This document shows positions 30,565-45,072 of a DNA stretch of 64,000 bases, piece by piece. Numbering within the stretch: the stretch's first letter is position 1; each line of letters begins with the position of its first letter. The translations under genes were made by a program, and so were the position numbers. Source of the DNA: Hyalangium ruber (GTDB lineage: Bacteria; Myxococcota; Myxococcia; Myxococcales; Myxococcaceae); assembly GCF_034259325.1 (NCBI RefSeq), contig NZ_JAXIVS010000011.1:248001-312000 (forward strand). Reading direction: 5' to 3'. The notes beneath the pieces were generated by a model, which saw nothing but the letters and a program-made list of their open reading frames with translations, was not told where the DNA came from and searched no databases.

Positions 30565-32070
30565 TCAGTCTCCGCTGCTTCCAGGTGAAGGGTCCTTGTC
30601 GGCCGCGCTGCGACGCAGGCCGAGCGCCTTCATCTTCTTGTAGAAGTGGCCGCGCTCCAGATCCAGCAATCGCGCCGCCTCGGTCACGTTGTCCTGCGTG
30701 TGCGAGAGCGCGTGGAGGATGATCTCCCGCTCCGCGTCCTCCACCTGCTCGCGGAAGGTCCGGTCCACCCGGGGGCGGAAGCCCGTGGGGGCCGGTGGCT
30801 CCGGCGCGCGCGGCAGGGCCGGCTCGGAGGCGGCAATGGCCGCGTTGGGGAGCGGTGGGGGCAGGGGAGAGGGTACCGCGCTGAGGGGTGGGGGAGCCGA
30901 GAGGCCCCGGCCCCGGGGAAGCAGCTCCAGGGCCTCGTTGCCGGAGACGACCGGGCCCTCGCAGAGGATGGCCAGCCGCTCCACCAGGTTGCGCAGCTCG
31001 CGCACGTTGCCCGGGTAGTCATAGGAGGCCATCACCGAGAGCGCCTCCGCCGAGAGCGTCAGCGGCTTGCGCCCGTTGCGCGCGCACGCCTCCTTCAGGA
31101 AGGTGTCGATGAGGTCCGGCAGGTCCTCGCGCCGCTCGCGCAGCGGGGGCGAGTGAATCTGCACCACGTTGATGCGGTAGTAGAGGTCCTCGCGGAAGTG
31201 GCCCCCGGAGATCTCCTTCTCCAGGTTCTTGTTCGTCGCGGCGATGACGCGCACGTCCACCTTGATGGTCTCGGCGCCGCCCACGCGCTCCAGCTCGCCC
31301 TCTTGCAGCACGCGCAGCAGCTTGGCCTGCATGGCCGCCGGCATGTCGCCGATCTCGTCCAGGAACAGGGTGCCCTCGTGCGCCAGCTCGAACTTGCCGC
31401 GCCGCACGCTCACCGCCCCGGTGAAGGCGCCCTTCTCGTGGCCGAACAGCTCGCTCTCGATCAGCTCGTGCGGCACCGCGGCGCAGTTGAGCTTCACGAA
31501 GGGGGCGCCCTTGCGCCGCGAGTTCTGGTGCAGCGCCCGGGCGATGAGCTCCTTGCCGGTGCCGTTCTCGCCGGTGATGAGCACCCGGCCCTCGGAAGGC
31601 GCCGTGCGCTGGATGAGCGAGAAGATGCGCTGCATGGCCGGGCCGCCGCCCACCATGTCGTAGCGGCTCATCTGCGAGCGCAGCTCCTGCAACTCCTCCA
31701 TGACGGCCTGGTGCTTGAGCGCGTTGCGCAGCGCCACCAGCAGTCGGTCGCGGGCGATGGGCTTCTCCAGGAAGTCGCGCGCCCCCAGCTGCGTGGCCTT
31801 CACCGCCGTGTCGATGGTGCCGTGGCCCGACATCATGATGACGGGCAGCTCCGGCTTCATCTCGTGCAGCCGGCCCAGGGCCGTCAGCCCGTCCATGTCC
31901 GGCATCTTCACGTCCATGAGGATGGCGTCCACCGGCCGGGCGGAGACCACGTCCAGGGCCACCTGCCCCGAGCTGGCCAGCTCCGTGCGGTAGCCCGCCA
32001 GCTGCAGCGACTGGCTCAGCGTGAGCAGGATGTTCTTCTCGTCATCGACGATGAGGACGGACGCGGGCAT
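30565..32070 (-). CDS. crdA: NtrC-family sigma-54 activator, CrdA orthologue
   Basis: A 501-residue response regulator. The receiver (1-120) has IVDDEK and the phospho-acceptor D53 in ILMDVKMPDMDG. The AAA+ domain (about 140-380) has Walker A GENGTGKE, the sigma-54 contact loop EKGAFTGAV and Walker B GTLFLDEIGD. After a Pro-rich linker, a Fis-type helix-turn-helix ends the protein (TEAARLLDLERGHFYKKMKA). In M. xanthus, CrdA is phosphorylated by CrdS, is dephosphorylated under CheA3 control, and sets the timing of developmental gene expression. Here it is divergent from the crdB-che3 operon exactly as in M. xanthus, which supports the name. The ATG at 32070 starts the receiver directly; doxX follows after 3 bases. 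Confidence 0.92.
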   Translation of the reverse strand: MPASVLIVDDEKNILLTLSQSLQLAGYRTELASSGQVALDVVSARPVDAILMDVKMPDMDGLTALGRLHEMKPELPVIMMSGHGTIDTAVKATQLGARDFLEKPIARDRLLVALRNALKHQAVMEELQELRSQMSRYDMVGGGPAMQRIFSLIQRTAPSEGRVLITGENGTGKELIARALHQNSRRKGAPFVKLNCAAVPHELIESELFGHEKGAFTGAVSVRRGKFELAHEGTLFLDEIGDMPAAMQAKLLRVLQEGELERVGGAETIKVDVRVIAATNKNLEKEISGGHFREDLYYRINVVQIHSPPLRERREDLPDLIDTFLKEACARNGRKPLTLSAEALSVMASYDYPGNVRELRNLVERLAILCEGPVVSGNEALELLPRGRGLSAPPPLSAVPSPLPPPLPNAAIAASEPALPRAPEPPAPTGFRPRVDRTFREQVEDAEREIILHALSHTQDNVTEAARLLDLERGHFYKKMKALGLRRSAADKDPSPGSSGD

Positions 32071-32282: not shown

Positions 32283-33038
32283 ATGCGTCAGATTTCGATG
32301 GTGGCGGGGCTGGCCCTTGCCGTGGTGGTGCTGAGCGGTTGTCCGTCCACTCCCACCTATCCCAAGTGCGAGAACGACACGCACTGCCAGGAGAAGGGCG
32401 AGGTCTGCGTCCAGGGGCAGTGCCAGGAGTGCGCCACGGACGCCAACTGCAAGGAAGGCTTCACCTGCCAGGCGAACAAGTGTACGCCCAAGGGCCCGGA
32501 GTGCACCACCGACACCCAGTGCGGCAGCGGCCGCATCTGCGAGGCGGGCAAGTGCGCCACCGCCCAGTGCGCGGCCGACACCCAGTGCCCCTCCGGCAGC
32601 AAGTGCGAGCGCGGCCGCTGCCAGGCGCCGCGTGACACCTGCTCCAGCAACGCCGACTGCGGCGAGGGCCAGCAGTGCCAGAATGGCCGCTGCGTGTCCG
32701 GTGGCGCCTCGCAGTGCAGCTGGGAGCCGATCTCCTTCGGCTTCAACGAGTCCAACCTCACCTCCGAGGCCCAGAGCCGCCTGTCCACCCTGGCCGAGTG
32801 CCTGAAGGCCTCGGGCGAGAAGGTCACCCTCGAGGGCCACGCCGACGAGCGCGGCACCGAGGAGTACAACCTCCAGCTGTCCAACCGCCGCGCCGCCTCG
32901 GTCAAGCGCTACCTCACCGACCTGGGCATCGCCTCCAACCGCCTGCAGGCGGTGGGCTTCGGCGAGACTCGCCCGCTCAGCACCGCCTCAGACGAGGAAG
33001 CGTGGGGCCAGAATCGCCGCGTCGAGTTCCGCCGCTAA
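32283..33038 (+). CDS. crdB: Cys-rich OmpA/Pal-type lipoprotein, CrdB orthologue
   Basis: A 251-residue lipoprotein. The signal peptide ends in a lipobox (VVLSGC, Cys near 20). Residues about 28-140 form roughly five tandem Cys-rich units of the pattern C-x5-C-x(5,6)-C-x4-C (for example CTTDTQCGSGRICEAGKC), probably disulfide-bonded. The C-terminal 105 residues are a Pal-like peptidoglycan-binding domain with FGFNESNLTSEAQSRL, LEGHADERGTEEYNLQLSN and QNRRVEFRR. CrdB heads the che3 operon in M. xanthus and is a periplasmic or outer-membrane lipoprotein; here cheW3 begins 21 bases later. AGGAGGG precedes the ATG. The Cys-rich insert could sense redox or bind a ligand (inference). Confidence 0.9.
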   Translation: MRQISMVAGLALAVVVLSGCPSTPTYPKCENDTHCQEKGEVCVQGQCQECATDANCKEGFTCQANKCTPKGPECTTDTQCGSGRICEAGKCATAQCAADTQCPSGSKCERGRCQAPRDTCSSNADCGEGQQCQNGRCVSGGASQCSWEPISFGFNESNLTSEAQSRLSTLAECLKASGEKVTLEGHADERGTEEYNLQLSNRRAASVKRYLTDLGIASNRLQAVGFGETRPLSTASDEEAWGQNRRVEFRR

Positions 33039-33497: not shown

Positions 33498-33872
33498 ATG
33501 CCGGGCCAGCACCTCGCCGGGACGCTGCTCTGCCATGCGGGCCCGTTCCGCATCGCCTTTCCCGCCCAGGACGTGGCGGTCATTGATGCGCCCGCGCTGC
33601 ATGCGGGCCGCTCGCGCTCGGCGCGCGAGGCGTTCGGAGAGCTTCCGGCCGCGGCGCGGGTGCTGCTGGCGCCCTCGGGAGAGACGGTGGGCGTGGACAC
33701 GCTGGAGATCGACTCGGAGGTTCATCGGGTGATGGACACGCCGCCGGTGCTGGCGCGGCTGGCGGGCGGCAGCCTGCTGGGCTTCATCTACACGCGGGGC
33801 GCGCTCTGGCCGCTGGTGCGGCTGGTGGACTTCGAGCACTACCTGTCTGGCGCCGCTCGGGAGGCCGCATGA
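33498..33872 (+). CDS. crdC: Divergent CheW-like protein (CrdC position)
   Basis: A 124-residue protein with a degenerate CheW-like profile: LLCHAGPFRIAFPAQDVAVI at the start, an internal VLARLAGGSLLGFIYTRGAL and WPLVRLVDFEHYL at the end. It is shorter and less conserved than the first CheW and would have an altered receptor/kinase interface. The position (between cheW3 and mcp3A, 3-base gap upstream and 4-base overlap downstream) matches the gene I recall as crdC, a CheW-like modulator of CheA3 in M. xanthus. The name is from memory, while the CheW-like nature is visible. A paralogous arrangement (FrzA/FrzB) exists in the Frz operon. Confidence 0.75.
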   Translation: MPGQHLAGTLLCHAGPFRIAFPAQDVAVIDAPALHAGRSRSAREAFGELPAAARVLLAPSGETVGVDTLEIDSEVHRVMDTPPVLARLAGGSLLGFIYTRGALWPLVRLVDFEHYLSGAAREAA

Positions 33873-35665
33873 GCACGCCCTCGGGGCTCAAGGGGCTGGC
33901 GGGGTGGATGACGCGGCCGTCCTGGCTGGGCGGCGGCGTGGGGCTCGTGCTGGCGCTGGCGCACTGGCAGATGTCCCAGACGCTGCCCTCCAGTTCCTGG
34001 GGCTACTTCCTGGCGCTGCTGGCGCTGGCGCTGGGCTCGAGCCTGGGGCTGACCAGCCTGATGGAGCGGCGCGCGCTGCGCGTGCTCTGGGCGATCGAGA
34101 AGGGCCGCTTGCCGCCCACGATGGAGAACCTGCGCCAGGCGCTGCAGGAGGCGCGCGCCATCCCCGAGCGCTGCTTCTGGTTCACCCTGCAGGCGTGGTT
34201 GGGTGGGGTGCTGTTGGTGGCCATCGCCGTGGTGCCGCTGACGGAGGCGCAGTGGACGCTGGGCCTGCGCGTGGGGGCGGTGGCCCTGAGCCTGGGGCCC
34301 TTGAGCGCCATGCTCGTCTACCTGCTGGTGGTGCGCCGCAGCCGCAAGGCCGCCGAGCGCATCGCCGAAGAGGGGCTCTCGGCTCTGGAGTTCATCTCCG
34401 CGGTGCCGCCCCAGCGGCAGAACATCCGCCGCCGGCTGATCATCTTCACCGCCATCGCCGTGCTCAGCCCCTCCATCTTCATCCTCGACGTGTCGATCGC
34501 CCGCGCGGTGCGGGTGATGGACAAGATGCTGGAGGCGCCGGACTGGCAGGCACAGCAGGCGGTGGTGGCGCACGCCCGGAGCTCCGGGAGCCTGGCGCTG
34601 GGGCTGATGTCCGGCATCGTCATCCTCCTGGTGCTGGGGACGGCGTACGTGGCCGGCACCGCGCTGTCCGAGCCGCTGCGCGCCATCACCGAGGACGCCA
34701 CGCGCATCGCCCGGGGAGACCTGCGCCCGCCGCGTGTCATCCCCTCGGAGGACGAGGTGTGGGCCGCCTCGGCCGCCTTCGTGCGGATGCAGGCGCAGCT
34801 GGGGCAGGCGCTGGCGCAGATGCGGCGCGCCGGCATGCAGATCTCCAGCACCACCGAGCAGCTGGTGGCCACCTCCACCGAGCAGGAGTCGGGTGCGGAC
34901 GAGCAGGCCAGCTCGCTCAACGAGACGAGCGCCACCACGGAGGAGCTGGCCCGCTCCGCGCAGCAGATCGCCGGTAATGCCGAGTCGGTGGCCGGCATCG
35001 CCGAGCGCACGTTCTCGGCGGCCCAGGGTGGCCAGCGCAACGCGGCGGCCTTCCTCACCGCCATGCAGCGGATGAAGGAGGACAACCAGGCCATCGCCGA
35101 CGCGGTGGTGCGGCTCAACAAGCGCGTGCAGCAGATCGGCAAGGTGGTCGAGTTCATCAACGAGATCGCCGACAAGTCGGACCTTTTGGCGCTCAACGCG
35201 GAGTTGGAGGGCACCAAGGCGGGCGAGGTGGGCCGAGGCTTCTCGCTGGTGGCCGCGGAGATGCGCCGCCTGGCCGAGAACGTCATCCGCTCCACGCGCA
35301 CCATCGAGCAGCTCATCGAGGAGATCCGTGACGCCACCCACGCGGCGGTGATGGCCACCGAGGCGGGGCTGAAGACGACGGAGGCGGGCACGATGCTGGC
35401 GGCCCAGGTGGACGAGAGCCTGAGCCTCATCCTCGAGCTGGCGCGGCAGACGAGCCACGCGGTGCGCTCCATCTCGCTGGCCACGCAGCAGCAGCAGACG
35501 GGTACGGATCAGCTCGCCGCCGCCATGGGCGACATCCTCCGCGTCACCGAGCAGAACGCCGCCGCCACCAAGCAGATGGTGGCCGCCAACAGCGATCTGT
35601 CCTCGCTGGCGCGCGACCTCAAGCTCGTGGTGGAGCGCTTCCAGCTCGCCGGCAGGGAGGGCTAG
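33869..35665 (+). CDS. mcp3A: Methyl-accepting chemotaxis protein Mcp3A, six-TM type
   Basis: A 598-residue receptor. Instead of a large periplasmic sensor, the N-terminal 260 residues hold about six hydrophobic helices (near 20-40, 43-62, 106-128, 134-156, 188-208 and 240-260) with only short loops. A HAMP domain (about 262-315) follows, then the long helical signalling domain. The hairpin tip is IADKSDLLALNAELEGTKAG and EVGRGFSLVAAEMRRLAENV, the CheA/CheW contact. Candidate methylation sites sit in the EQEx and EE pairs of the flanking helices. It overlaps crdC by 4 bases and precedes mcp3B by 3 bases. Ligand sensing, if any, must be within the membrane or through another protein such as CrdB. 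Confidence 0.92.
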   Translation: MSTPSGLKGLAGWMTRPSWLGGGVGLVLALAHWQMSQTLPSSSWGYFLALLALALGSSLGLTSLMERRALRVLWAIEKGRLPPTMENLRQALQEARAIPERCFWFTLQAWLGGVLLVAIAVVPLTEAQWTLGLRVGAVALSLGPLSAMLVYLLVVRRSRKAAERIAEEGLSALEFISAVPPQRQNIRRRLIIFTAIAVLSPSIFILDVSIARAVRVMDKMLEAPDWQAQQAVVAHARSSGSLALGLMSGIVILLVLGTAYVAGTALSEPLRAITEDATRIARGDLRPPRVIPSEDEVWAASAAFVRMQAQLGQALAQMRRAGMQISSTTEQLVATSTEQESGADEQASSLNETSATTEELARSAQQIAGNAESVAGIAERTFSAAQGGQRNAAAFLTAMQRMKEDNQAIADAVVRLNKRVQQIGKVVEFINEIADKSDLLALNAELEGTKAGEVGRGFSLVAAEMRRLAENVIRSTRTIEQLIEEIRDATHAAVMATEAGLKTTEAGTMLAAQVDESLSLILELARQTSHAVRSISLATQQQQTGTDQLAAAMGDILRVTEQNAAATKQMVAANSDLSSLARDLKLVVERFQLAGREG

Positions 35666-35668
35666 CCC

Positions 35669-37480
35669 ATGAGCTCCACCTCTGCGCGCCACCGGGCTTT
35701 CTTCAGCCGTCACCTGGTCATCCCCGTCACCCTCGCCAACATGGTGGGGGCGGCGCTGGCCTGCCACTACGCCTGGCTCACCCTGGAGGAGAAGCTCCAG
35801 GGGGCCTTCCACCTGTTCGTGGGTTTGGGCTCGGTGGCGTGCGTCATCGCCATGGCCGTGGGTGGCATCCTGCTGCGCCGCCGCCTTCACGTGCTGCGCG
35901 GGCTGGAGCGGGGCGAGTTCTCGCCCACATCGGAGCGGCTGTCGCAGGCCGTGGCCGAGGCGACGGGCGCCGCCGACTCCAGCTTCGTCACCTCGCTTAT
36001 CCTCTGGCTTGCCACCACGGTGCTCCTGGGCGTGCTGGTGGGGACGATGGGCCAGGGGGGCTGGAGCGCGGGGCTGGGCGTCGCCGGGCTGGGGTTGTTG
36101 TTCGGCCCCATCACCTCGCTGCTCGTGCTGTGCCTCGTCACCCTGCGGGCGCGCCGCGTGGTGCTCTGGCTCGGGGAGCTGGGGCTCAGCCAGTCGCAGA
36201 TCATCGCCGCCATGCCCCGGCGGGCGCAGATCCGCACGCGGCTCGTCATCTTCACCGCCATCGCCGTGCTGACGCCCGCGGTGCTCTCGGCCAACCTGGC
36301 CTCGGCGCTGGCGGAGCATGCCTATGAGGAGGTGCTCTCCACCCCCCAAGAGGCCCAGCCCCAGCGCGTGCGGCAGCTCCGGGTGGAGGCGCTCACCTCC
36401 GGTGGGGCGCTGTGCCTGCTGGTGTTCGCGCTGGCGCTCACCACCGCGTACCTGGGCAGCACGCTGGTGGGGCGCCCCATGCGCCAACTGGCCGACGAGG
36501 CGCGCCGCATCGCCGACGGAGACCTGGCCACCCCGCGCCTCATCACCGCCGAGGACGAGTCGTGGGCCGTCTCCGCCGCCTTCGCGATGATGCGGGCGCA
36601 CCTGGCCGATGTGCTCTCGCAGTTGCAGCGCGCCGGCGCGCAGATCAGCGCCACCACCGAGGAGATCCTCGCCACCTCCGGTCGCTACGAGGCCGGCGCC
36701 GCCGAGCAGGCCAGCTCGCTGGATGAGACGAGCGCCACCACCGAGGAATTGGCCCGCTCCGCGCGGCAGATCGCCGAGAACGCCGGCTCGGTGGCGGAGA
36801 TCGCCCAGCGCACGCTGGCCGCTGCTCAGGCGGGGCAGGGCAGCGCCGAGGCCTTCCTGTCCTCCATGAGCCGCATGCGCAACGACAACCAGGCCATCGC
36901 GGGCGCGGTGACCCGGCTCAACAAGCGCGTGCAGCAGATCGGCAAGATCGTCGAGTTCATCAACGGCGTGGCCGATAAATCGGACCTTTTGGCGCTCAAC
37001 GCGGAGTTGGAGGGCACCAAGGCGGGCGAGGTGGGCCGGGGCTTCTCGCTGGTGGCCGCGGAGATGCGCCGCCTGGCCGAGAACGTGCTCGAGTCCACCA
37101 AGGAGATCGAAGGCCTCATCGAGGAGGTGCGCGAGGCCTCGCGCGCCGCCGTGGCGGCCACCGGTGGCGGCGTGCGCGCCACGGAGACGGGCACCTCGCT
37201 GGCACAGCAGGTCTCCGAGTCGCTCAAGCAGATCGTCGATCTGGCCGGGCAGACCTCCGACGCGGTGCGCTCCATCTCGCTGGCCACGCAGCAGCAGCAG
37301 ACGGGTACGGATCAGCTCGCCGACACCATGGCGGACATCCTCCGCATCACCCAGCAGAGCCTCAACGCCACCAAGCAGGTGAGCACCGCCAACGGGGACC
37401 TGTTGGTGCTCGCGCTGGATCTGCGCAACGTGGTGGAGCGCTTCCAGATCGGGCAGGGGCAATCGAGGGGTGACGGGTGA
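35669..37480 (+). CDS. mcp3B: Methyl-accepting chemotaxis protein Mcp3B, six-TM type
   Basis: A 603-residue receptor, paralogous to the preceding one over its full length: about six N-terminal TM helices, HAMP (about 270-325) and a helical signalling domain with the tip VADKSDLLALNAELEGTKAG. At the DNA level the tip region (36978-37088) and a segment near the end (37271-37322) are almost or fully identical to the matching stretches of mcp3A, while the TM regions differ. This indicates duplication with later gene conversion or strong constraint. The stop overlaps the cheA3 GTG start by 4 bases. Its sensory input is unknown. Confidence 0.92.
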   Translation: MSSTSARHRAFFSRHLVIPVTLANMVGAALACHYAWLTLEEKLQGAFHLFVGLGSVACVIAMAVGGILLRRRLHVLRGLERGEFSPTSERLSQAVAEATGAADSSFVTSLILWLATTVLLGVLVGTMGQGGWSAGLGVAGLGLLFGPITSLLVLCLVTLRARRVVLWLGELGLSQSQIIAAMPRRAQIRTRLVIFTAIAVLTPAVLSANLASALAEHAYEEVLSTPQEAQPQRVRQLRVEALTSGGALCLLVFALALTTAYLGSTLVGRPMRQLADEARRIADGDLATPRLITAEDESWAVSAAFAMMRAHLADVLSQLQRAGAQISATTEEILATSGRYEAGAAEQASSLDETSATTEELARSARQIAENAGSVAEIAQRTLAAAQAGQGSAEAFLSSMSRMRNDNQAIAGAVTRLNKRVQQIGKIVEFINGVADKSDLLALNAELEGTKAGEVGRGFSLVAAEMRRLAENVLESTKEIEGLIEEVREASRAAVAATGGGVRATETGTSLAQQVSESLKQIVDLAGQTSDAVRSISLATQQQQTGTDQLADTMADILRITQQSLNATKQVSTANGDLLVLALDLRNVVERFQIGQGQSRGDG

Positions 37481-39954
37481 CACCTCGAGATCGTCTGCTG
37501 AAGCAGTTCCGGGACCTGGTGGGCGTACGGCTCGACAAGATCAACCGCTCCATCGTGGAACTGGAGGCCACAGGGAACGTGGAGACGGGGCGCAAGGCGC
37601 TCCGGGAGCTGCACGGCCTCAAGGGCGAGGCCCGGATGATGGGCTTCGACAGCATCAACGTGCTCGTCCACGAGATGGAGGAGCTCGTCCGCTCCATCGA
37701 GCCGGCCCAGTACGCCCTGTCCCATGACTCCGCCGACGCGCTGCTCAAGTCCGCCGACGCGGTGACGATCCTCTCGGGGCTGGTGGCCTCGGACGACGCG
37801 CCCGAGGTGGAGAAGCTGGTGTCGTGGCTGCGTGAGCGCACCCGGGTGGAGCAGACCCAGCTCGGAGGCCCGCCCCCCGAGCCGGTGGTGATTCCGGCCG
37901 TCACGAAGTCCCCGACTGTCGGCGGGCCTCGGACGCCCGTTCCGCTGGCGAACCCGCCGCCCCGCACGCCCACTCCGGCCAAGGGGGCCCCGCGGATCTC
38001 CACGCCCGTGCCCCTGCCGCAGGGTTCCCTCGGTTCGACCGGGACGGCGACCGGGCAGTCCGTGGCGACGCACGCCAAGGCGCTCCAGGGGGCAGCGCTT
38101 CAAGGGACGACGGCTCAGCCGCAGGGGGCCACTCCCGCGACCGGGGGCAACCCCGTGCGACGGACCCCTCCGAATCCGGAGCCCTCCACGCCGCTCAAGG
38201 CTCCCGCGCCCGCGCCTTCAGGGCCCGGGCCCAACGCGGCGGTGCAGCCTCCGCGGCCGGAGCCTCGCGCCGACAGCTCGGTCCGCATCGAAGCCGCGAG
38301 CCTGGACCTGCTCACCAGCGCCGCCACCAACCTCAAGCAGGTGGCGCGTCGGCGGGAGCTGGCCAATGGCAAGCGCCTCGCGCTGGCCCGGGAGCTGACC
38401 CAGCTGGCCCGCGAGGCCGAGGACCTGGGCCCCGCGGCGGCGGCGCTGGCGGCGCGACTGGGCAAGGCCAAGGAGCTGGCCGCCGCGCTGCACCGCGAGT
38501 CGAAGCTGCTGGCCAACGAGGAGCTGAGGGACCTGGGGCAGGTGGTCGAAGAGGTGCAGCGCATCCGCATGCTGCCGCTGTCGGTCCTCTTCGAGCCGTA
38601 CCCGCGCATGGTGCGCGACCTGGCCCGCGAGCTCGGCAAGGAAGTGGAGCTGGTGACGGACGGCGAGGACACCCGCGCCGACCGCGCCGTGGTGGAGGCG
38701 CTGAGAGATCCGTTGCTGCACCTCATCCGCAACGCGCTGGACCATGGCCTGGAGTCGCGGGTGGACCGGGTCGGGTCGAACAAGCGCCCCAAGGGCTGCC
38801 TCACGCTGCGCGCCTCGCGAGAGGGCAACCGCATCATCCTGCGCGTCGAGGATGACGGCGTGGGCCTGGACACGGGCATGCTGCGCAAGGTGGCCGTGCG
38901 CCGGGGCTTCCTGGACGAGGGGGCAGCCAGCGCGCTCACCGAGGGGCAGGCGCGCGAGCTCATCTTCATCTCCGGCTTCTCCTCGCGAGACGTCACCACC
39001 GACATCTCCGGGCGCGGCGTGGGGCTGGACGCGGTGCGCAGCGCGGTGCAGAGCCTGGGCGGAGACGTCAGCGTCGAGTCCGCGCCGGGCTGGGGCACCA
39101 TCTTCGAGATCCGCGTCCCCGTGTCCCTCACGGTGGCGCCGCTGCTCTTCGTGAAGGCGGGGGAGGAGACGCTGGCCCTGAGCGCCTCCCACGTCTCCCG
39201 GGCGCTCAAGCTGGAGCTGTCCTCGATGAGCGAGATCGCCGGCCGGCCCGCGCTGGACGTCGAGGGCCGGGTGTTGCCCTTCGCGCACCTCTCGGCCCTG
39301 CTGGGGCTGGCCCCCGAGCGACCTCCCGCCGAAGGCGAGCTGGTGCTCGTCGTGCGCAGCCAGGGCGTCACCGCCGCGCTGGCCGTGGAGCGGGTGCTGG
39401 AGGAGCGCGTCCAGGCCATCCTCCCCCTCAAGGGGCTGCTCGCGCGCTTCTCCCACCTCACCGGCGCCACCACGCTGGCGGATGGACGGCTGGCGATGGT
39501 GCTCTCGGCCGCCTACCTGACCGCCGGCGCCCACGGCTCCGTCTCCATCAAGCTGCCGCGCGCCGCCCCGCGCACCGTCGAGGTCCAGCGCCGCCGCATC
39601 CTGGTCGTGGACGACTCCCCCCTCACCCGCGAGCTCATCTCCGCCCTCCTGGAGGCGGTGGGGTACGACATCATCACCGCCTCGGATGGGGTGGAGGCCC
39701 TCCACCAGCTCTCCCTGCACCCGGTGGACCTCGTGGTGACCGACCTCGAGATGCCTGGGTTGGATGGCCTGGAGCTGACCCGCCAGCTCAAGAATCACGA
39801 GAAATTTAACCGACTTCCGGTCATCATTCTCACCACGCGTGGAGGTGAGGAGGACCGGAAGCGGGGGTTGGCGGTGGGGGCGAACGGCTACATCACCAAG
39901 GGGGACCTGGTCCGCCAGGACCTGGTGGACGTGGTGAAGCGGCTGTTGGGCTGA
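37477..39954 (+). CDS. cheA3: Hybrid CheA-CheY histidine kinase CheA3
   Basis: An 825-residue hybrid. The N-terminal Hpt has the phospho-acceptor H46 in RELHGLKGEARMMG. A Pro/Ala/Thr-rich linker (about 125-270) replaces a clear P2 domain. The dimerisation helices and HATPase core follow, with LIRNALDHGLESR, VEDDGVGLD and GRGVGLDAVRSAVQSLGG. Next come a CheW-like regulatory domain and a C-terminal receiver (about 705-825) with LVVDDSPLTR and VVTDLEMPGLDG. In M. xanthus, CheA3 influences the phosphorylation state of CrdA rather than a flagellar motor. The GTG start at 37477 overlaps the mcp3B stop. All kinase motifs appear intact, so loss of kinase activity is not predicted. Confidence 0.93.
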   Translation: MTPRDRLLKQFRDLVGVRLDKINRSIVELEATGNVETGRKALRELHGLKGEARMMGFDSINVLVHEMEELVRSIEPAQYALSHDSADALLKSADAVTILSGLVASDDAPEVEKLVSWLRERTRVEQTQLGGPPPEPVVIPAVTKSPTVGGPRTPVPLANPPPRTPTPAKGAPRISTPVPLPQGSLGSTGTATGQSVATHAKALQGAALQGTTAQPQGATPATGGNPVRRTPPNPEPSTPLKAPAPAPSGPGPNAAVQPPRPEPRADSSVRIEAASLDLLTSAATNLKQVARRRELANGKRLALARELTQLAREAEDLGPAAAALAARLGKAKELAAALHRESKLLANEELRDLGQVVEEVQRIRMLPLSVLFEPYPRMVRDLARELGKEVELVTDGEDTRADRAVVEALRDPLLHLIRNALDHGLESRVDRVGSNKRPKGCLTLRASREGNRIILRVEDDGVGLDTGMLRKVAVRRGFLDEGAASALTEGQARELIFISGFSSRDVTTDISGRGVGLDAVRSAVQSLGGDVSVESAPGWGTIFEIRVPVSLTVAPLLFVKAGEETLALSASHVSRALKLELSSMSEIAGRPALDVEGRVLPFAHLSALLGLAPERPPAEGELVLVVRSQGVTAALAVERVLEERVQAILPLKGLLARFSHLTGATTLADGRLAMVLSAAYLTAGAHGSVSIKLPRAAPRTVEVQRRRILVVDDSPLTRELISALLEAVGYDIITASDGVEALHQLSLHPVDLVVTDLEMPGLDGLELTRQLKNHEKFNRLPVIILTTRGGEEDRKRGLAVGANGYITKGDLVRQDLVDVVKRLLG

Positions 39955-40023
39955 AGGCTCCCCTAAGGACAGGGGATGGCATTGGGTATACTCCCCGCCG
40001 CGCGCACGGGGTATGCACTGGTC

Positions 40024-41079
40024 ATGGGCAAGAAAGTGTCGGTGCTGGTGGTCGATGATTCGCTCATCTGCCGACAGCTCATCTGCGAAGCGCTGAGCCA
40101 GGACCCGGATCTCCAGATCGTCGGGACGTGCGCTGACGGCAAGGAGGCGGTGGCTCGCGTCAAGGAGCTGCGCCCGAACGTCGTCACCATGGACGTGGAC
40201 ATGCCGGTGATGGACGGGCTCACCGCCGTGGAGCACATCATGGCGGAGAGCCCCACGCCCATCCTGGTGCTCACGGCGGATCCGCGCTCGCAGGCCCCGG
40301 AGCTGACGTGTCGGGCGCTGGAGCTGGGCGCGTTGGGGTTGCGCGTCAAGCCGTCCATCGACGACGGGCTGGAGGCGTGGAACCTGGCCAAGGAGCTGAA
40401 GCTGCTGGCCTCGGTGCGCGTCATCCGCCACCTGCGCGGCCCCAAGCGCGCGCCGCCACCCAAGCAGGACGGGCCCTCGGCGCTGCTTCCGGCCAACGTG
40501 GGCGTGGTGGCGGTGGCGGCCTCGACGGGTGGCCCTCAAATCCTCCACCGGATGCTGGCGGACCTGCCCGCGGACTTCCCGGCGCCCATCGCCATCGTCC
40601 AGCACATCAACGCCGCCTTCGCCGAGTCGCTGGCGGGCTGGCTCGCCAACTCCTCGCGCCTGAAGGTGCGGCTGGCCCAGGACGGCGAGCTGCTGATGCC
40701 GGGCCACGTGCTCATCGCCCCGCCGGGCATGCACATGGTCATCCCCTTCCGGGGGCGCGTGTCGCTCAAGCCGGGCGTGGAGCGCGATGGGCACATGCCC
40801 TCGGGCACGGTGCTGCTGGAGAGCGCGGCGAAGGCGTACGGGCGCCGCGCCCTGGGCGTCATCCTCACCGGCATGGGCGAGGACGGCGCGGCGGGCATGG
40901 CCGCCATCAAGGCGGCCGGAGGCGTCACCGTGGCGCAGAACGAGGAGTCCTGCGTGGTGTTCGGCATGCCGGGCGCGGCCGTGGAGCGCAACGCCGTGGA
41001 CCACCTCGTCCCCGGGGATGAGGTTGCCGCCGCGCTGCTGCGGCTCACGCGCGGTGAACCCCTCGCCGCGGGGCGGTGA
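40024..41079 (+). CDS. cheB3: Chemotaxis protein-glutamate methylesterase CheB3
   Basis: A 351-residue two-domain CheB. The N-terminal receiver has [11 protein letters not shown] and [14 protein letters not shown] (phospho-acceptor Asp near 57), with VKPSIDDG in the Lys position. The C-terminal methylesterase domain has the catalytic Ser in VAASTGGPQ, His in [11 protein letters not shown] and Asp in [11 protein letters not shown]. It removes methyl groups from receptor glutamates and so resets adaptation. The ATG at 40024 follows a 69-base gap after cheA3, the largest inside the cluster. The stop overlaps the cheR3 start by 4 bases. Confidence 0.93.
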
Positions 41080-42617
41080 AGGTGGAGAACTCCTCTCGGT
41101 CCGCCTCGCTCATCCACGCGTTCATCTCGGCGCGGACGGGCATGGCGCTGAGTGGCTCTCAGCGGCGCCGGTTGGATGAGCGGCTGGCGGCGCTCCAGGG
41201 AAACCTGTCCGAGCAGCAGTTCCTCATGTACCTCCAGTCGCCGGCGGGAGTCGCGGAGCTGGCCGCGCTCATCTCCGTGGTGGCCGTCCACAAGACGGAC
41301 CTGTTCCGGGACGAGGTGCAGCTGTCCTCCTTTCGCTCCCATGTGCTCGAGCCGCTGGTGGCGCAGGGGCAGGGGCGGCCGCTGCGCGTGTGGAGCGCGG
41401 GCTGTGCCACGGGCGAGGAGGTGGCCACGCTCCTCATCTTGCTCGAGGAGGCGGGGGCGGACCCGAGCAGCACGGTGCTGGGCACGGACATCTCCGACGC
41501 GGTGCTCACCCGCGCCCGGTCACTGAGCTTCGCCGCGGATCAGGTGCGCCGGCTGCCGCAGGGCATCCGCGAGCGCTACTTCGTGCCGGACGGGACGCGC
41601 TCGGCGCTGCTGCCCCAGTTGCGGGAGCGGGCGAGCTTCCAGATCCACAACCTGATGGACATGCCGTACCCCGTGGGCGGGGGCGACGGCTTCGACGTCA
41701 TCTTCTGCCGCAACGTCCTCATCTACTTCACGGCCGAGGCGTTCGATCGGGTGGTGGAGTCGCTGGCCGAGCGGCTCACGATGGGCGGCACGCTGGTGCT
41801 CTCCTCCGCCGAGCCGCTGCTGCACGCGCCTCCGAGCCTGCGCATCATCCGTGGCGAGCACGCCTTCTTCTATGTCCGCACCCAGGACCTGATGGCCGCG
41901 CAGCTCAAGCGCAAGCCAGGGGACCCGCTCCCGCTGCCCACGGATCGCAGGAGGGACGCTGGCTCCTTTCCCGTCATCGGACCGTCGGCCCCGGGGGATG
42001 CGCCGCGCGACTTGGGGGCCGTGCCTTCGGGTGGAGAGTCCCGGCGGGAGTCGGGACGCTTTGTCGTCGTGCCTCCCCCGACTCCGAGGGACTCGGGGCG
42101 CTTTCCGGCCGTGCCGGCCTCTCAGCCGCAGCGGGAGTCGGGGCGTTTTCCAGCCGTGCCGGCCTCGCAGCCGCAGCGGGAGTCGGGGCGTTTTCCAGCC
42201 GTGCCGCCCGCGCCGGCCCTCGTGGGGAGGCCCGAGTCAGGCCAGTTCCCCACGGTGGGGCTCGCCGAGGGGGCGGACGCGCGGGAGCAGGGGCCGCAGG
42301 ACCCGGTGCATGCCGAGGCGGATGGTCTGTTCGCCCAGGTGCTCGACGGGGTGGGGGAGACGGACGCGCGTACGGAGGAGTACCTGCGGCGCTGTCTGAC
42401 GCTGGACCCGGACCTCGCCGCCGCGCGCTACCTGCTGGCGATGCTCCTGGAACTGCGTGAGGCGTTCGCCGAGGCGGCCGCCGAGTACCGCAAGGCGCTG
42501 CGCTCGCTGGAGGAGGGCAGGGCGCGCCCCACCCCCTTCTTCCTCAACCACGCCCGTCTCCGGGTGGCGTGCGCGCGGGCCGTGGAGCGGATGGAGGACG
42601 GCAGCCGGCCCCGCTGA
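41076..42617 (+). CDS. cheR3: CheR methyltransferase with repeat linker and TPR tail, CheR3
   Basis: A 513-residue protein. The N-terminal all-helical CheR domain is followed by the SAM-binding methyltransferase domain with [27 protein letters not shown] and [20 protein letters not shown]. It methylates receptor glutamates. After residue 285 there is a low-complexity linker with about five copies of a unit built around ESGRFPAVP, then C-terminal TPR-like helices (about 410-505, [20 protein letters not shown]). The GTG start overlaps the cheB3 stop by 4 bases. TPR-tailed CheR proteins (FrzF type) occur in other myxobacterial Che systems and may bind receptor tails or other Che proteins. The linker repeats look recently expanded. 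Confidence 0.92.
42046..42246 (+). repeat. Tandem repeat inside cheR3 encoding SGRFPAVP units
   Basis: A 45-base unit occurs in near-identical tandem copies (42123-42167 and 42168-42206 are the cleanest), with more diverged copies on either side. The reading frame is kept (45 = 15 codons). The encoded units centre on [14 protein letters not shown]. Fresh identity between copies suggests slippage or unequal recombination. Confidence 0.8.
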
Positions 42618-42678: not shown

Positions 42679-43572
42679 ATGCGCCCCCCTATGAGAAGGC
42701 TCGCCCTGCTTGTCCTGCTGCCCCTCGCGGGCTGCTTCTACCCGGCCGATCGCGGACGCGCGCTCGAAGCCAAGGTGGACCGGCTCAGCTCTGACAACAC
42801 CCGCCTCACCGAGGAGCTGAAGGCGGCGCGCGAGCAGCTCAACGCCACGCTGCCGCTCATCGATCAGAAGGTGGTCGAGGTGACGAAGGCGCTCGAGGGC
42901 CTGGACAAGGCCGCGCGGCGCAACGACGCGGACATCGGCATCCAGCTCCAGAAGACGGTGGAGGACATGGCCCAGCTGCGCGGGCAGGTGGAGACGTACC
43001 TCTACAAGATCTCCGAGCTGGAGGCGGCGCTCGGCCGGCTCACCCAGGACGCGGAGAAGAAGCAGCTGGCGCAGCAGGGCGTGGACGCGCTGAAGGAGGC
43101 CGAGGCGAAGAAGCAGGCCGAGGCGCTGCAGCGGCCCGTGGACAAGAAGGAGTTCCTCGCGCTGGCCCAAGCGAAGGCGAAGGCGGGGGAGCTGCCCCTG
43201 GCGCGCCAGCTCTTCAACGAGTTCATGAAGAAGTGGGCCAAGGACCCGCTGATGGGCGAGGCGCACTACGGCATGGGCGAGACGTACTTCGCCGAGGACA
43301 AGTGCCGCGAGGCGCTCTTCGAGTACGGCCAGGTGCTGCAGGGCTTCCCGAAGTCGCCGGCGGCGCCCGACGCGTACCTGCGCTCCTCGGAGTGCTTCGG
43401 CAAGCTGAAGATGAAGGAGGAGTCGCGGCTGGCGCTGGAGGAGCTCGTGAAGAGCCACCCCAAGTCGGAAGCGGCGAAGACGGCCAAGACCCGGCTCGCG
43501 GAGCTGGACAAGGCGAAGAAGAAGCCGGCGGCGCCCGCTCCGGCCCCGGCCCCGAAGAAGGGAACCAAATGA
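42679..43572 (+). CDS. CpoB/YbgF-like coiled-coil TPR lipoprotein
   Basis: A 297-residue lipoprotein with signal MRPPMRRLALLVLLPLAGC (lipid Cys near 19). A coiled coil follows (about 28-130: LEAKVDRLSSDNTRLTEEL, KTVEDMAQLRGQVETYLYKI). TPR units sit at about 155-270 (GELPLARQLFNEFMKKWAKD, EALFEYGQVLQGFPKSPAAP, ALEELVKSHPKSEAAKTAKT), and the tail is Lys/Pro/Ala-rich. This coiled coil plus TPR layout is that of CpoB/YbgF, which in other Gram-negatives couples the Tol-Pal machine to PBP1B. It lies 61 bases after cheR3 and overlaps the next gene (the selenoprotein) by 4 bases, so it is translationally coupled to it. The gene is probably part of, or read through from, the che3 operon. Confidence 0.87.
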   Translation: MRPPMRRLALLVLLPLAGCFYPADRGRALEAKVDRLSSDNTRLTEELKAAREQLNATLPLIDQKVVEVTKALEGLDKAARRNDADIGIQLQKTVEDMAQLRGQVETYLYKISELEAALGRLTQDAEKKQLAQQGVDALKEAEAKKQAEALQRPVDKKEFLALAQAKAKAGELPLARQLFNEFMKKWAKDPLMGEAHYGMGETYFAEDKCREALFEYGQVLQGFPKSPAAPDAYLRSSECFGKLKMKEESRLALEELVKSHPKSEAAKTAKTRLAELDKAKKKPAAPAPAPAPKKGTK

Positions 43573-44672
43573 GACTGCCCCGCCTGGCCCTGGCCGCGCT
43601 GGCGCTGCTGCTGCTGCCCCTGGTGGCGGGCGCGGCGCCCAAGAAGCTGGTGCTGCTCTTCACCGGAGACAATGGGGGCGAGATCGCCCCCTGTGGTTGA
43701 CGCCACAACCCGTCTGGCGGTCTGGCCAGACGAAAGAAGGTCATCGAGCAGGAGCGCGCCAAGGGCGTGCCGGTGCTCGTGTTGGATGCGGGCAATGCGC
43801 TCTTCAAGTTCCCCACCGCGGGCGGGGAGCCGACCGAGGAGGCACGGGCGAAGCTGCTGCTACAGCAGATGGATGCGATGGGCACCTCGGCCATGGCCGT
43901 GGGCACGCGCGACCTGGTGCGCGGCGTGGACTTCCTGCGCAAGCACGGCAAGGTCGCGAATCTGAAGCTCCTGTCCGCCAACCTCCTGACGAAGGAGGGC
44001 AAGAAGGCCTTCCCGGCCTCCACGGTGCTCACCGCGGGAGAGCTGAAGGTGGGCGTGGTGGGGGTGTCTCCCGAGGGTGGGGTAGGCGATGCCATCGGGC
44101 AGCCTCCCATCCCCGCGGCCCTGGCGGAGGCCAAGCGGCTGCGCCAGACCGAGAAGGTGGACGTGGTGGTGGTGCTCGCCGCGCTGCCCCACACCATGGC
44201 CCGGCAGCTCGCCCAGCAGGGCGAGGGCGTGGACTTCGTCGTCCAGTCGGGCGACGGGCGGGGGCCGGGCATGGCCTCCAAGGACGGGTTCGCCACCCTC
44301 GTTCCCCCCGGGGAGCGTGGGCGCCAGCTCGCCCGCCTGGAGCTGTCGGTGAACGGGGCGGGCCCCTTCGCGGACCTCTCGACCGTGAGCCGGGACCAGG
44401 AGCGGCTGAAGATGCTGGAGTCCAACCTGACCCGGGCCAAGGAGCGGCTGTCGGCGACGAAGGACGAGACGTCGCGGCGGGCGCTCGAGGAGTCGATCAC
44501 CAGCCTGGAGACCCAGCGGGCAACCGTGCAGAAAGCGCTGAAGGGCGGCGCAACGGGGAGTGCCCGGACGCATCTACTGTCGTACACCTCGCTTGGGGCG
44601 GATGTCCCGTCCGATGCGGCCGTCCAGAAGCTGGTGGAAGCGATCGAGCCTCCAGGCTCGGCGCACCACTGA
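43569..44672 (+). CDS. Selenoprotein of the UshA/5'-nucleotidase-like family (in-frame UGA = Sec44)
   Basis: Read with UGA at 43698-43700 as selenocysteine, the frame gives one 367-residue protein. The signal peptide is 1-22 (MRLPRLALAALALLLLPLVA). LVLLFTGDNGGEIAPCG-U-RHNPSGGLARRKKV follows in two blocks, then VLVLDAGNALFK (69-80), GTRDLVRGVDFL, VGVVGVSPEGG and a C-terminal coiled coil (about 275-330). The GGLARR and LDAG blocks are those of the 5'-nucleotidase/metallophosphatase (UshA, SoxB) family, where a Cys-Gly-Cys often precedes GGLARR; here the second Cys is Sec. The canonical DxH and GD metal ligands read GDN and GN, so phosphatase chemistry is doubtful and thiol/selenol redox or metal binding is possible. 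The ATG overlaps the CpoB-like stop by 4 bases. Ordinary gene calling would give two pieces or a pseudogene. I recall an NCBI family named UshA-like (seleno)protein that may cover it. Confidence 0.9.
43698..43735 (+). promoter_or_regulatory. Bacterial SECIS element with the Sec-encoding UGA
   Basis: The UGA (43698-43700) is followed by a perfect 8-base stem, CGTCTGGC (43711-43718) and GCCAGACG (43725-43732), closing a GGTCTG loop (43719-43724). Counting U of UGA as 1, the loop GGUCUG is at 22-27. In E. coli fdhF the SelB-binding loop bases GGUCUG also fall at 22-27. Both the structure and the spacing required for SelB recoding are met. Confidence 0.9.
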
Positions 44673-44781: not shown

Positions 44782-45072
44782 ATGAAGCCCGAGATCCACC
44801 CGGTCTATCCGCCCTCGCGCGTCACCTGTGCTTGCGGCAACATCGTCGAGACCAAGTCCACGCGCGGCTCGTTCAGCGTGGAAATCTGCTCGAACTGCCA
44901 CCCCTTCTTCACGGGCAAGTACAAGCTCGTCGACACCGCGGGTCGCATCGATCGCTTCCGCAAGAAGTACGCCGCCAACCCCGCCAAGGAGGCCGCTCCC
45001 GCCGCTGGCGAGGCCGCCGCCGCTCCGGCCGCGGGTGCCAAGAAGGGCAAGAAGGGCGAGGCGAAGGCGTAA
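44782..45072 (+). CDS. rpmE: 50S ribosomal protein L31, zinc (C+) type with AK-rich tail
   Basis: A 96-residue protein. The first 70 residues match bL31: [40 protein letters not shown] and [11 protein letters not shown]. The CxC and CxxC pairs mark the zinc-binding paralogue. The last 25 residues are an Ala/Lys-rich extension ([19 protein letters not shown]) longer than in most bacteria, which may contact rRNA. The start is the ATG at 44782, matching the family start; an in-frame ATG at 44755 would add a leader not found in L31. A sigma-70 promoter lies upstream and a hairpin downstream. Confidence 0.95.

Follow-up and report, generated by a model that had tools for sequence, protein, structure and literature searches.

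A predicted UshA-like selenoprotein encoded beside the Che3 chemosensory cluster of Hyalangium ruber

A gene with a single in-frame UGA, lying behind a Che3-type chemosensory cluster in the myxobacterium Hyalangium ruber, almost certainly encodes a genuine selenoprotein, as judged from comparison of its sequence with that of its relatives. The gene, called UshU here, was found in the window, a stretch of 64,000 nucleotides (contig NZ_JAXIVS010000011.1, positions 248,001 to 312,000), and the features discussed below are listed in Table 1. An earlier sequence-only reading of this DNA had proposed the selenoprotein on the basis of the UGA and an adjacent hairpin, and both proved to be conserved in related genomes, with compensatory changes in the stem. 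The H. ruber genome also encodes the machinery for selenocysteine (Sec). G and L numbers are our handles for genomes and loci respectively.

Table 1. Features of the window around the UshU gene
Feature	Position	Strand	Remarks
NtrC-type sigma-54 response regulator, probable CrdA	30565..32070	-	divergent from Pal-like gene; arrangement as in PMC4320627
Cys-rich Pal/OmpA-like lipoprotein (23 Cys), probable CrdB	32283..33038	+	TIGR02802 106 bits (cut-off 125), Myxo_Cys_RPT, OmpA
Methyl-accepting chemotaxis protein (MCP), Che3 cluster	33869..35665	+	
Second methyl-accepting chemotaxis protein	35669..37480	+	
CheA with C-terminal receiver domain	37477..39954	+	
CheB	39976..41079	+	NF001965 over cut-off
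CheR	41076..42617	+	
CpoB/YbgF-like TPR lipoprotein	42679..43572	+	ATG at 42679 or 42691; TIGR02795, TPR_6
UshA-like selenoprotein CDS (UshU)	43569..44672	+	367 aa, Sec44 in APCGU, N-terminal export signal
Selenocysteine-encoding in-frame UGA	43698..43700	+	codon 44 of UshU
Bacterial SECIS, 8-bp stem, apical loop GGUCUG at 43719-43724	43711..43732	+	folding, codon redraws, conservation
Ribosomal protein L31, next gene downstream of UshU	44782..45072	+	neighbour conserved in many relatives

Reading frame and SECIS element

The UshU frame opens with an ATG at 43569, contains one internal TGA (43698-43700) and ends at a TGA at 44670-44672, and the protein is conserved on either side of the internal codon in the same frame, as is expected of a bacterial selenoprotein. 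The sequence-only reading had also foreseen that conventional gene calling would yield a fragment or pseudogene, and the ORF caller does break at 43700 and restart at 43767, so that a 5' piece and an ORF of 301 aa remain. UshU is probably reported as a fragment by routine annotation in most such genomes, because its score falls below those required by the curated models.

The claimed hairpin, an 8-bp stem with the loop GGUCUG at nucleotides 22-27 counted from the U of UGA, was borne out by folding, by codon redraws and by conservation in 49 loci. It lies 3' of the UGA and consists of eight uninterrupted pairs between 43711-43718 and 43725-43732 (CGUCUGGC / GGUCUG / GCCAGACG), matching E. coli fdhF in both loop and position. 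The predicted minimum free energy is -16.4 kcal/mol (z = -2.86), a stability equalled by 2 of 200 shuffles, and when the UshU protein was kept fixed and codons were drawn from local usage, a GGTCTG loop at 22-27 together with a stem of at least 8 bp arose in 139 of 200,000 synonymous redraws. The stem requires codons that the genome avoids, AGA making up only 0.8% of Arg codons, and the shares of TCT, GGT and CGA among their synonyms are 3.3%, 6.1% and 4.3%.

Among the 31 distinct Sec-type sequences (49 loci) the UGA and GGTCT at 22-26 are invariant, the pairs 20-29, 17-32 and 14-35 hold in every sequence, and codon 7 is GGT throughout, though GGT accounts for about 6% of local Gly codons. Compensatory types occur at pair 18-31 (TA to GC) and at pair 16-33 (TA to AT or GC). 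In L090 and L094, which are Cys orthologues, the codon is UGC, the loop reads GGGCTG and there is no comparable stem. A search of Rfam at the gathering threshold matched no SECIS, which is not evidence against one, given how short and variable such elements are in bacteria. In the Chloroflexi homologues L112, L113 and L115 the PCGU motif is present and the UGA is followed by a different stem-loop. On the comparative evidence, SelB with Sec-tRNA-Sec reads the UGA of codon 44 under the direction of the adjacent hairpin.

Conservation and exchange of selenocysteine for cysteine

A UshU homologue was found in 53 of the 60 related genomes searched, the full-length orthologues mostly having exactly one TGA, and the reading frame continues across the UGA site in all orthologues, which had been suggested as a check on the claim. 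A scan of named genomes revealed the UGA in PCGU in Myxococcus, Corallococcus, Pyxidicoccus, Archangium, Hyalangium, Citreicoccus and Anaeromyxobacter, and PCGU with UGA is also present in distant members from the Marinimicrobia, Desulfobulbaceae and Chloroflexi. Archangium-type genomes (L077, L080, L124) carry an extra single-domain Cys paralogue with HCGC or DCGC and no trace of the SECIS loop. One record titled Comamonas sp. KCTC 72670 (L078, BNCN01000006.1) has UshU in a Che3 neighbourhood and is probably a mislabelled or contaminated assembly, since its UshU groups with Myxococcus xanthus.

A further check suggested by the sequence-only reading was whether the UGA column is Cys in relatives lacking the Sec genes. 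The codon is UGC in 3 of the 60 relatives, G021 (L020/L090), G013 (L023/L094) and G046 (L127), none of which has a clear tRNA-Sec; their best scores are 44-52 bits, none of them strong, as against 66-78 bits in Sec users. SelB over the cut-off is absent from two of these genomes and present in G013. A strong tRNA-Sec was detected in 30 of the 32 genomes with the UGA form, the two exceptions being fragmented assemblies, and a one-sided exact test of this association, calculated by hand and ignoring relatedness, gave a value of about 0.0015. The tree requires five changes between Sec and Cys, of which at least four are forced by well-supported branches, while long branches make the placement of L107/L114 and the two-domain homologues unsure; the Sec residue is therefore swapped for Cys, not lost.

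The genome of H. ruber itself contains selA (566.8 bits), selB (306.9), selD (385.9) and a tRNA-Sec (selC; 72.4, anticodon TCA), so that all four genes called for by the sequence-only reading are present. Its SelD (G000:C7:62733-63659, L056) has a single in-frame TGA in the context SHCAG-U-AAKIRP, which independently points to the reading of UGA as Sec in this genome, and is probably a second selenoprotein.

Protein family, fold and metal site

UshU had been described from its sequence as an exported, 5'-nucleotidase/UshA-like protein with altered metal ligands, and each part of that description held: it has an N-terminal export signal, and the remainder is upheld by profile similarity, predicted fold and alignment. 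Against NF041198 (UshA_like_PCGU), whose PCG(U/C) motif it shares, UshU scored 172.8 bits (cut-off 275, E = 1e-50), covering only profile positions 16-374 of 519 and not the full two-domain length; all 35 aligned relatives match the profile and none of the 60 relatives passes its cut-off. The score against NF049981 was 50.8 bits (cut-off 140, E = 1.5e-13), and a Pfam search with the UshU protein gave no match. UshU belongs to the UshA-like CxU selenoproteins (NF041198), of which it is a single-domain branch.

A two-domain UshA-like homologue with PCGC is encoded elsewhere in the same genome (L121, G000:C6:295900-298100), where it is fused to a cytochrome c554-type domain (Cytochrome_C554); it scored 249 bits against the NF041198 cut-off of 275, and similar proteins were found in most relatives searched. 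The fusion of these CGC homologues to a cytochrome points to redox chemistry.

The AlphaFold model of UshU (pLDDT 89.7) has the predicted fold of a metallophosphoesterase domain, the N-terminal domain of UshA and 5'-nucleotidases, with Z scores of 31-32 over some 265-270 residues against 5'-nucleotidases and about 30 against SoxB. The product aligns with the N-terminal part of solved 5'-nucleotidases only, the C-terminal substrate-binding domain having no counterpart. Read against the dinuclear ligand set of UshA (DxH, D, GNH(E/D), H, GHxH), UshU has not kept the full set: none of the 35 aligned rows retains GNH(E/D), nearly all having GxRD instead, most have DxG for DxH, and the Myxococcaceae have Ala in place of H217. 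The metal-bridging Asp (D73 in UshU) is kept in most members, distant members keep histidines of the H217/H252 type, and more ligands are kept in the Anaeromyxobacter and Chloroflexi members (more of the metal-binding histidines in L112, L113 and L115). Because the metal motifs of UshA are largely lost, ordinary phosphoesterase activity is unlikely. The Cys-Gly-Sec motif falls, in alignment and predicted fold, in the loop that follows strand one, beside the vestigial metal site, and is the best candidate for the active site.

A possible, though rather unlikely, alternative to a redox enzyme is that Cys42 and Sec44 ligate a remodelled metal or cofactor site, making UshU a metal-dependent hydrolase in the manner of SoxB acting on sulfur-linked or phosphate substrates. 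The structural likeness to SoxB and to 5'-nucleotidases and the retention of D73, and of the histidines in distant members, would be accounted for by such a site. However, the near-universal change to GxRD, the frequent DxG and the missing H217 in the Myxococcaceae tell against it, and redox chemistry agrees better with the pattern of Sec/Cys exchange and with the fusion of homologues to a cytochrome.

Gene neighbourhood

Coupling to a CpoB/YbgF-like lipoprotein behind a Che3 operon was likewise part of the sequence-only reading, and both elements recur in relatives. In the window, as in most of the relatives checked, the CpoB-like gene and UshU share 4 nt (ATGA) at their stop and start, and nearly all myxobacterial orthologues whose contigs extend far enough have a CpoB-like gene immediately upstream, whether of the Sec or the Cys form. 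No CpoB neighbour was found beside the Cys paralogues L077 and L080 of Archangium, nor was CpoB detected beside the f9-family copies L130, L131 and L133. The protein scored 84.7 bits against TIGR02795, just under the cut-off of 90.1 (relatives of the same type scored 87-89), and is therefore labelled CpoB-like. The L31 gene that follows UshU is probably outside the module functionally.

The Pal-like lipoprotein has a long Cys-rich repeat region (TIGR04201 repeats) ahead of its OmpA domain, and 21-24 Cys are kept in relatives, which is unusual for Pal. In M. xanthus the che3 cluster begins with crdB, and crdA is oriented divergently from it (PMC4320627); this arrangement matches that of the window, and the Che3 label is therefore supported. 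The order Pal-MCP-MCP-CheA-CheB-CheR-CpoB-UshU is found in the Myxococcaceae and Archangiaceae, and Pal-CpoB-UshU without intervening che genes in Anaeromyxobacter, G046 and G024. Pal-CpoB is kept with no UshU behind CpoB in G006 and G020, and L142 and L151 have a Cys-rich Pal without an adjacent UshU. The simplest reading is that Pal-CpoB-UshU is the older unit, into which the chemosensory genes would later have been inserted or recruited in the Myxococcaceae and Archangiaceae. In a second myxobacterial clade (L092:912-5120, L089, L095, L098, L110, L090) the gene directly upstream of CpoB-UshU encodes some 1,400 aa, and its product in L092 belongs to the M36 (fungalysin-type) metallopeptidases and has PKD domains.

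The co-linearity of UshU with crdB, the MCP genes and cheA/B/R in the Myxococcaceae and Archangiaceae would suit a redox or ligand sensor subunit of the Che3 system that is not an enzyme. We consider this distinctly improbable: several lineages have UshU and CpoB with no che genes nearby, which means that Che3 cannot be required for the ancestral function, and Sec suggests catalysis.

Proposed function

The view that UshU is no selenoprotein, but a pseudogene, a gene with a frameshift or sequencing error, or one whose UGA is read as some other amino acid, has as its sole point that ORF callers break the gene. It is scarcely credible against the recurrence of the same UGA and the same hairpin at some 49 loci in assemblies made independently, the use of UGA as the normal stop of both UshU and the neighbouring gene, complete Sec machinery in the genome and Cys in place of UGA where tRNA-Sec is missing.

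The best explanation, to which we give roughly an even chance, is that UshU is a thiol/selenol-disulfide oxidoreductase or isomerase serving an envelope complex. A CGC motif is a known mimic of protein disulfide isomerase. On the UshA-type domain, exported and stripped of most of its metal ligands, Cys42-Gly-Sec44 would cycle between selenylsulfide and thiol/selenol forms, and the protein would act in the periplasm as an oxidoreductase or isomerase, not as a phosphatase. The genomic setting hints at a redox role in the cell envelope. The clients may be co-encoded envelope proteins, above all the Cys-rich Pal-like lipoprotein, a plausible suggestion that we hold with less confidence than the enzymatic role. 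A disulfide in CpoB was also considered as the specific redox partner and found no support as a strict link, since the Cys pair does not track UshU strictly: it is missing from Anaeromyxobacter, G036 and G046 and occurs in G006 and G020, which lack UshU after CpoB, and unlinked YbgF proteins often have one of the two Cys.

It is conceivable, but on the whole unlikely, that these genes form an undescribed myxobacterial envelope redox module, in which a Cys-rich lipoprotein of the Pal type, a coordinator resembling CpoB, and an isomerase or reductase that carries Cys-Gly-Sec on a dead phosphoesterase fold would be wired to Che3 in the Myxococcaceae and Archangiaceae, so that the disulfide state of the envelope would feed developmental signalling.

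Comparison with known systems

The novelty implied by the sequence-only reading was overstated, as COG0737 UshA-like (CxU) selenoproteins were reported in the 2008 GOS study (PMC2398784) and NCBIfam models exist, among them NF049981 for UshA-like (seleno)protein family 2, CxxU (PMC13188914). In the literature surveyed, from 2008 on, we found no function assigned to UshA-like selenoproteins and no paper describing the UshU selenoprotein in myxobacteria. What is new, on sequence grounds, is a single-domain, myxobacteria-centred branch that scores below the curated thresholds and has a conserved envelope and chemosensory context. The conserved Pal-CpoB-UshU order and the Che3 cluster place UshA-like selenoproteins in a definite physiological setting, and in genetically tractable bacteria, Myxococcus among them.

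UshU shares with NF041198 proteins a homologous N-terminal domain and PCG(U/C) with Sec or Cys at the same site, but it is without the cytochrome c554-type part of the two-domain homologues and is linked to Pal, CpoB and Che3. Its N-terminal similarity to NF049981 is distant, and the motif is CxU rather than CxxU. With the UshA and CD73 5'-nucleotidases and SoxB it has the metallophosphoesterase domain fold in common, whereas the C-terminal nucleotide-binding domain is lacking, most metal ligands are replaced and a CGU loop is present. By gene arrangement the cluster resembles M. xanthus Che3 (crdA, crdB, mcp3 and the che3 genes) in having an NtrC-type regulator divergent from the first lipoprotein gene, followed by MCPs, CheA, CheB and CheR; it differs in that UshU and CpoB stand at its 3' end, and both of these occur without che genes in other lineages.
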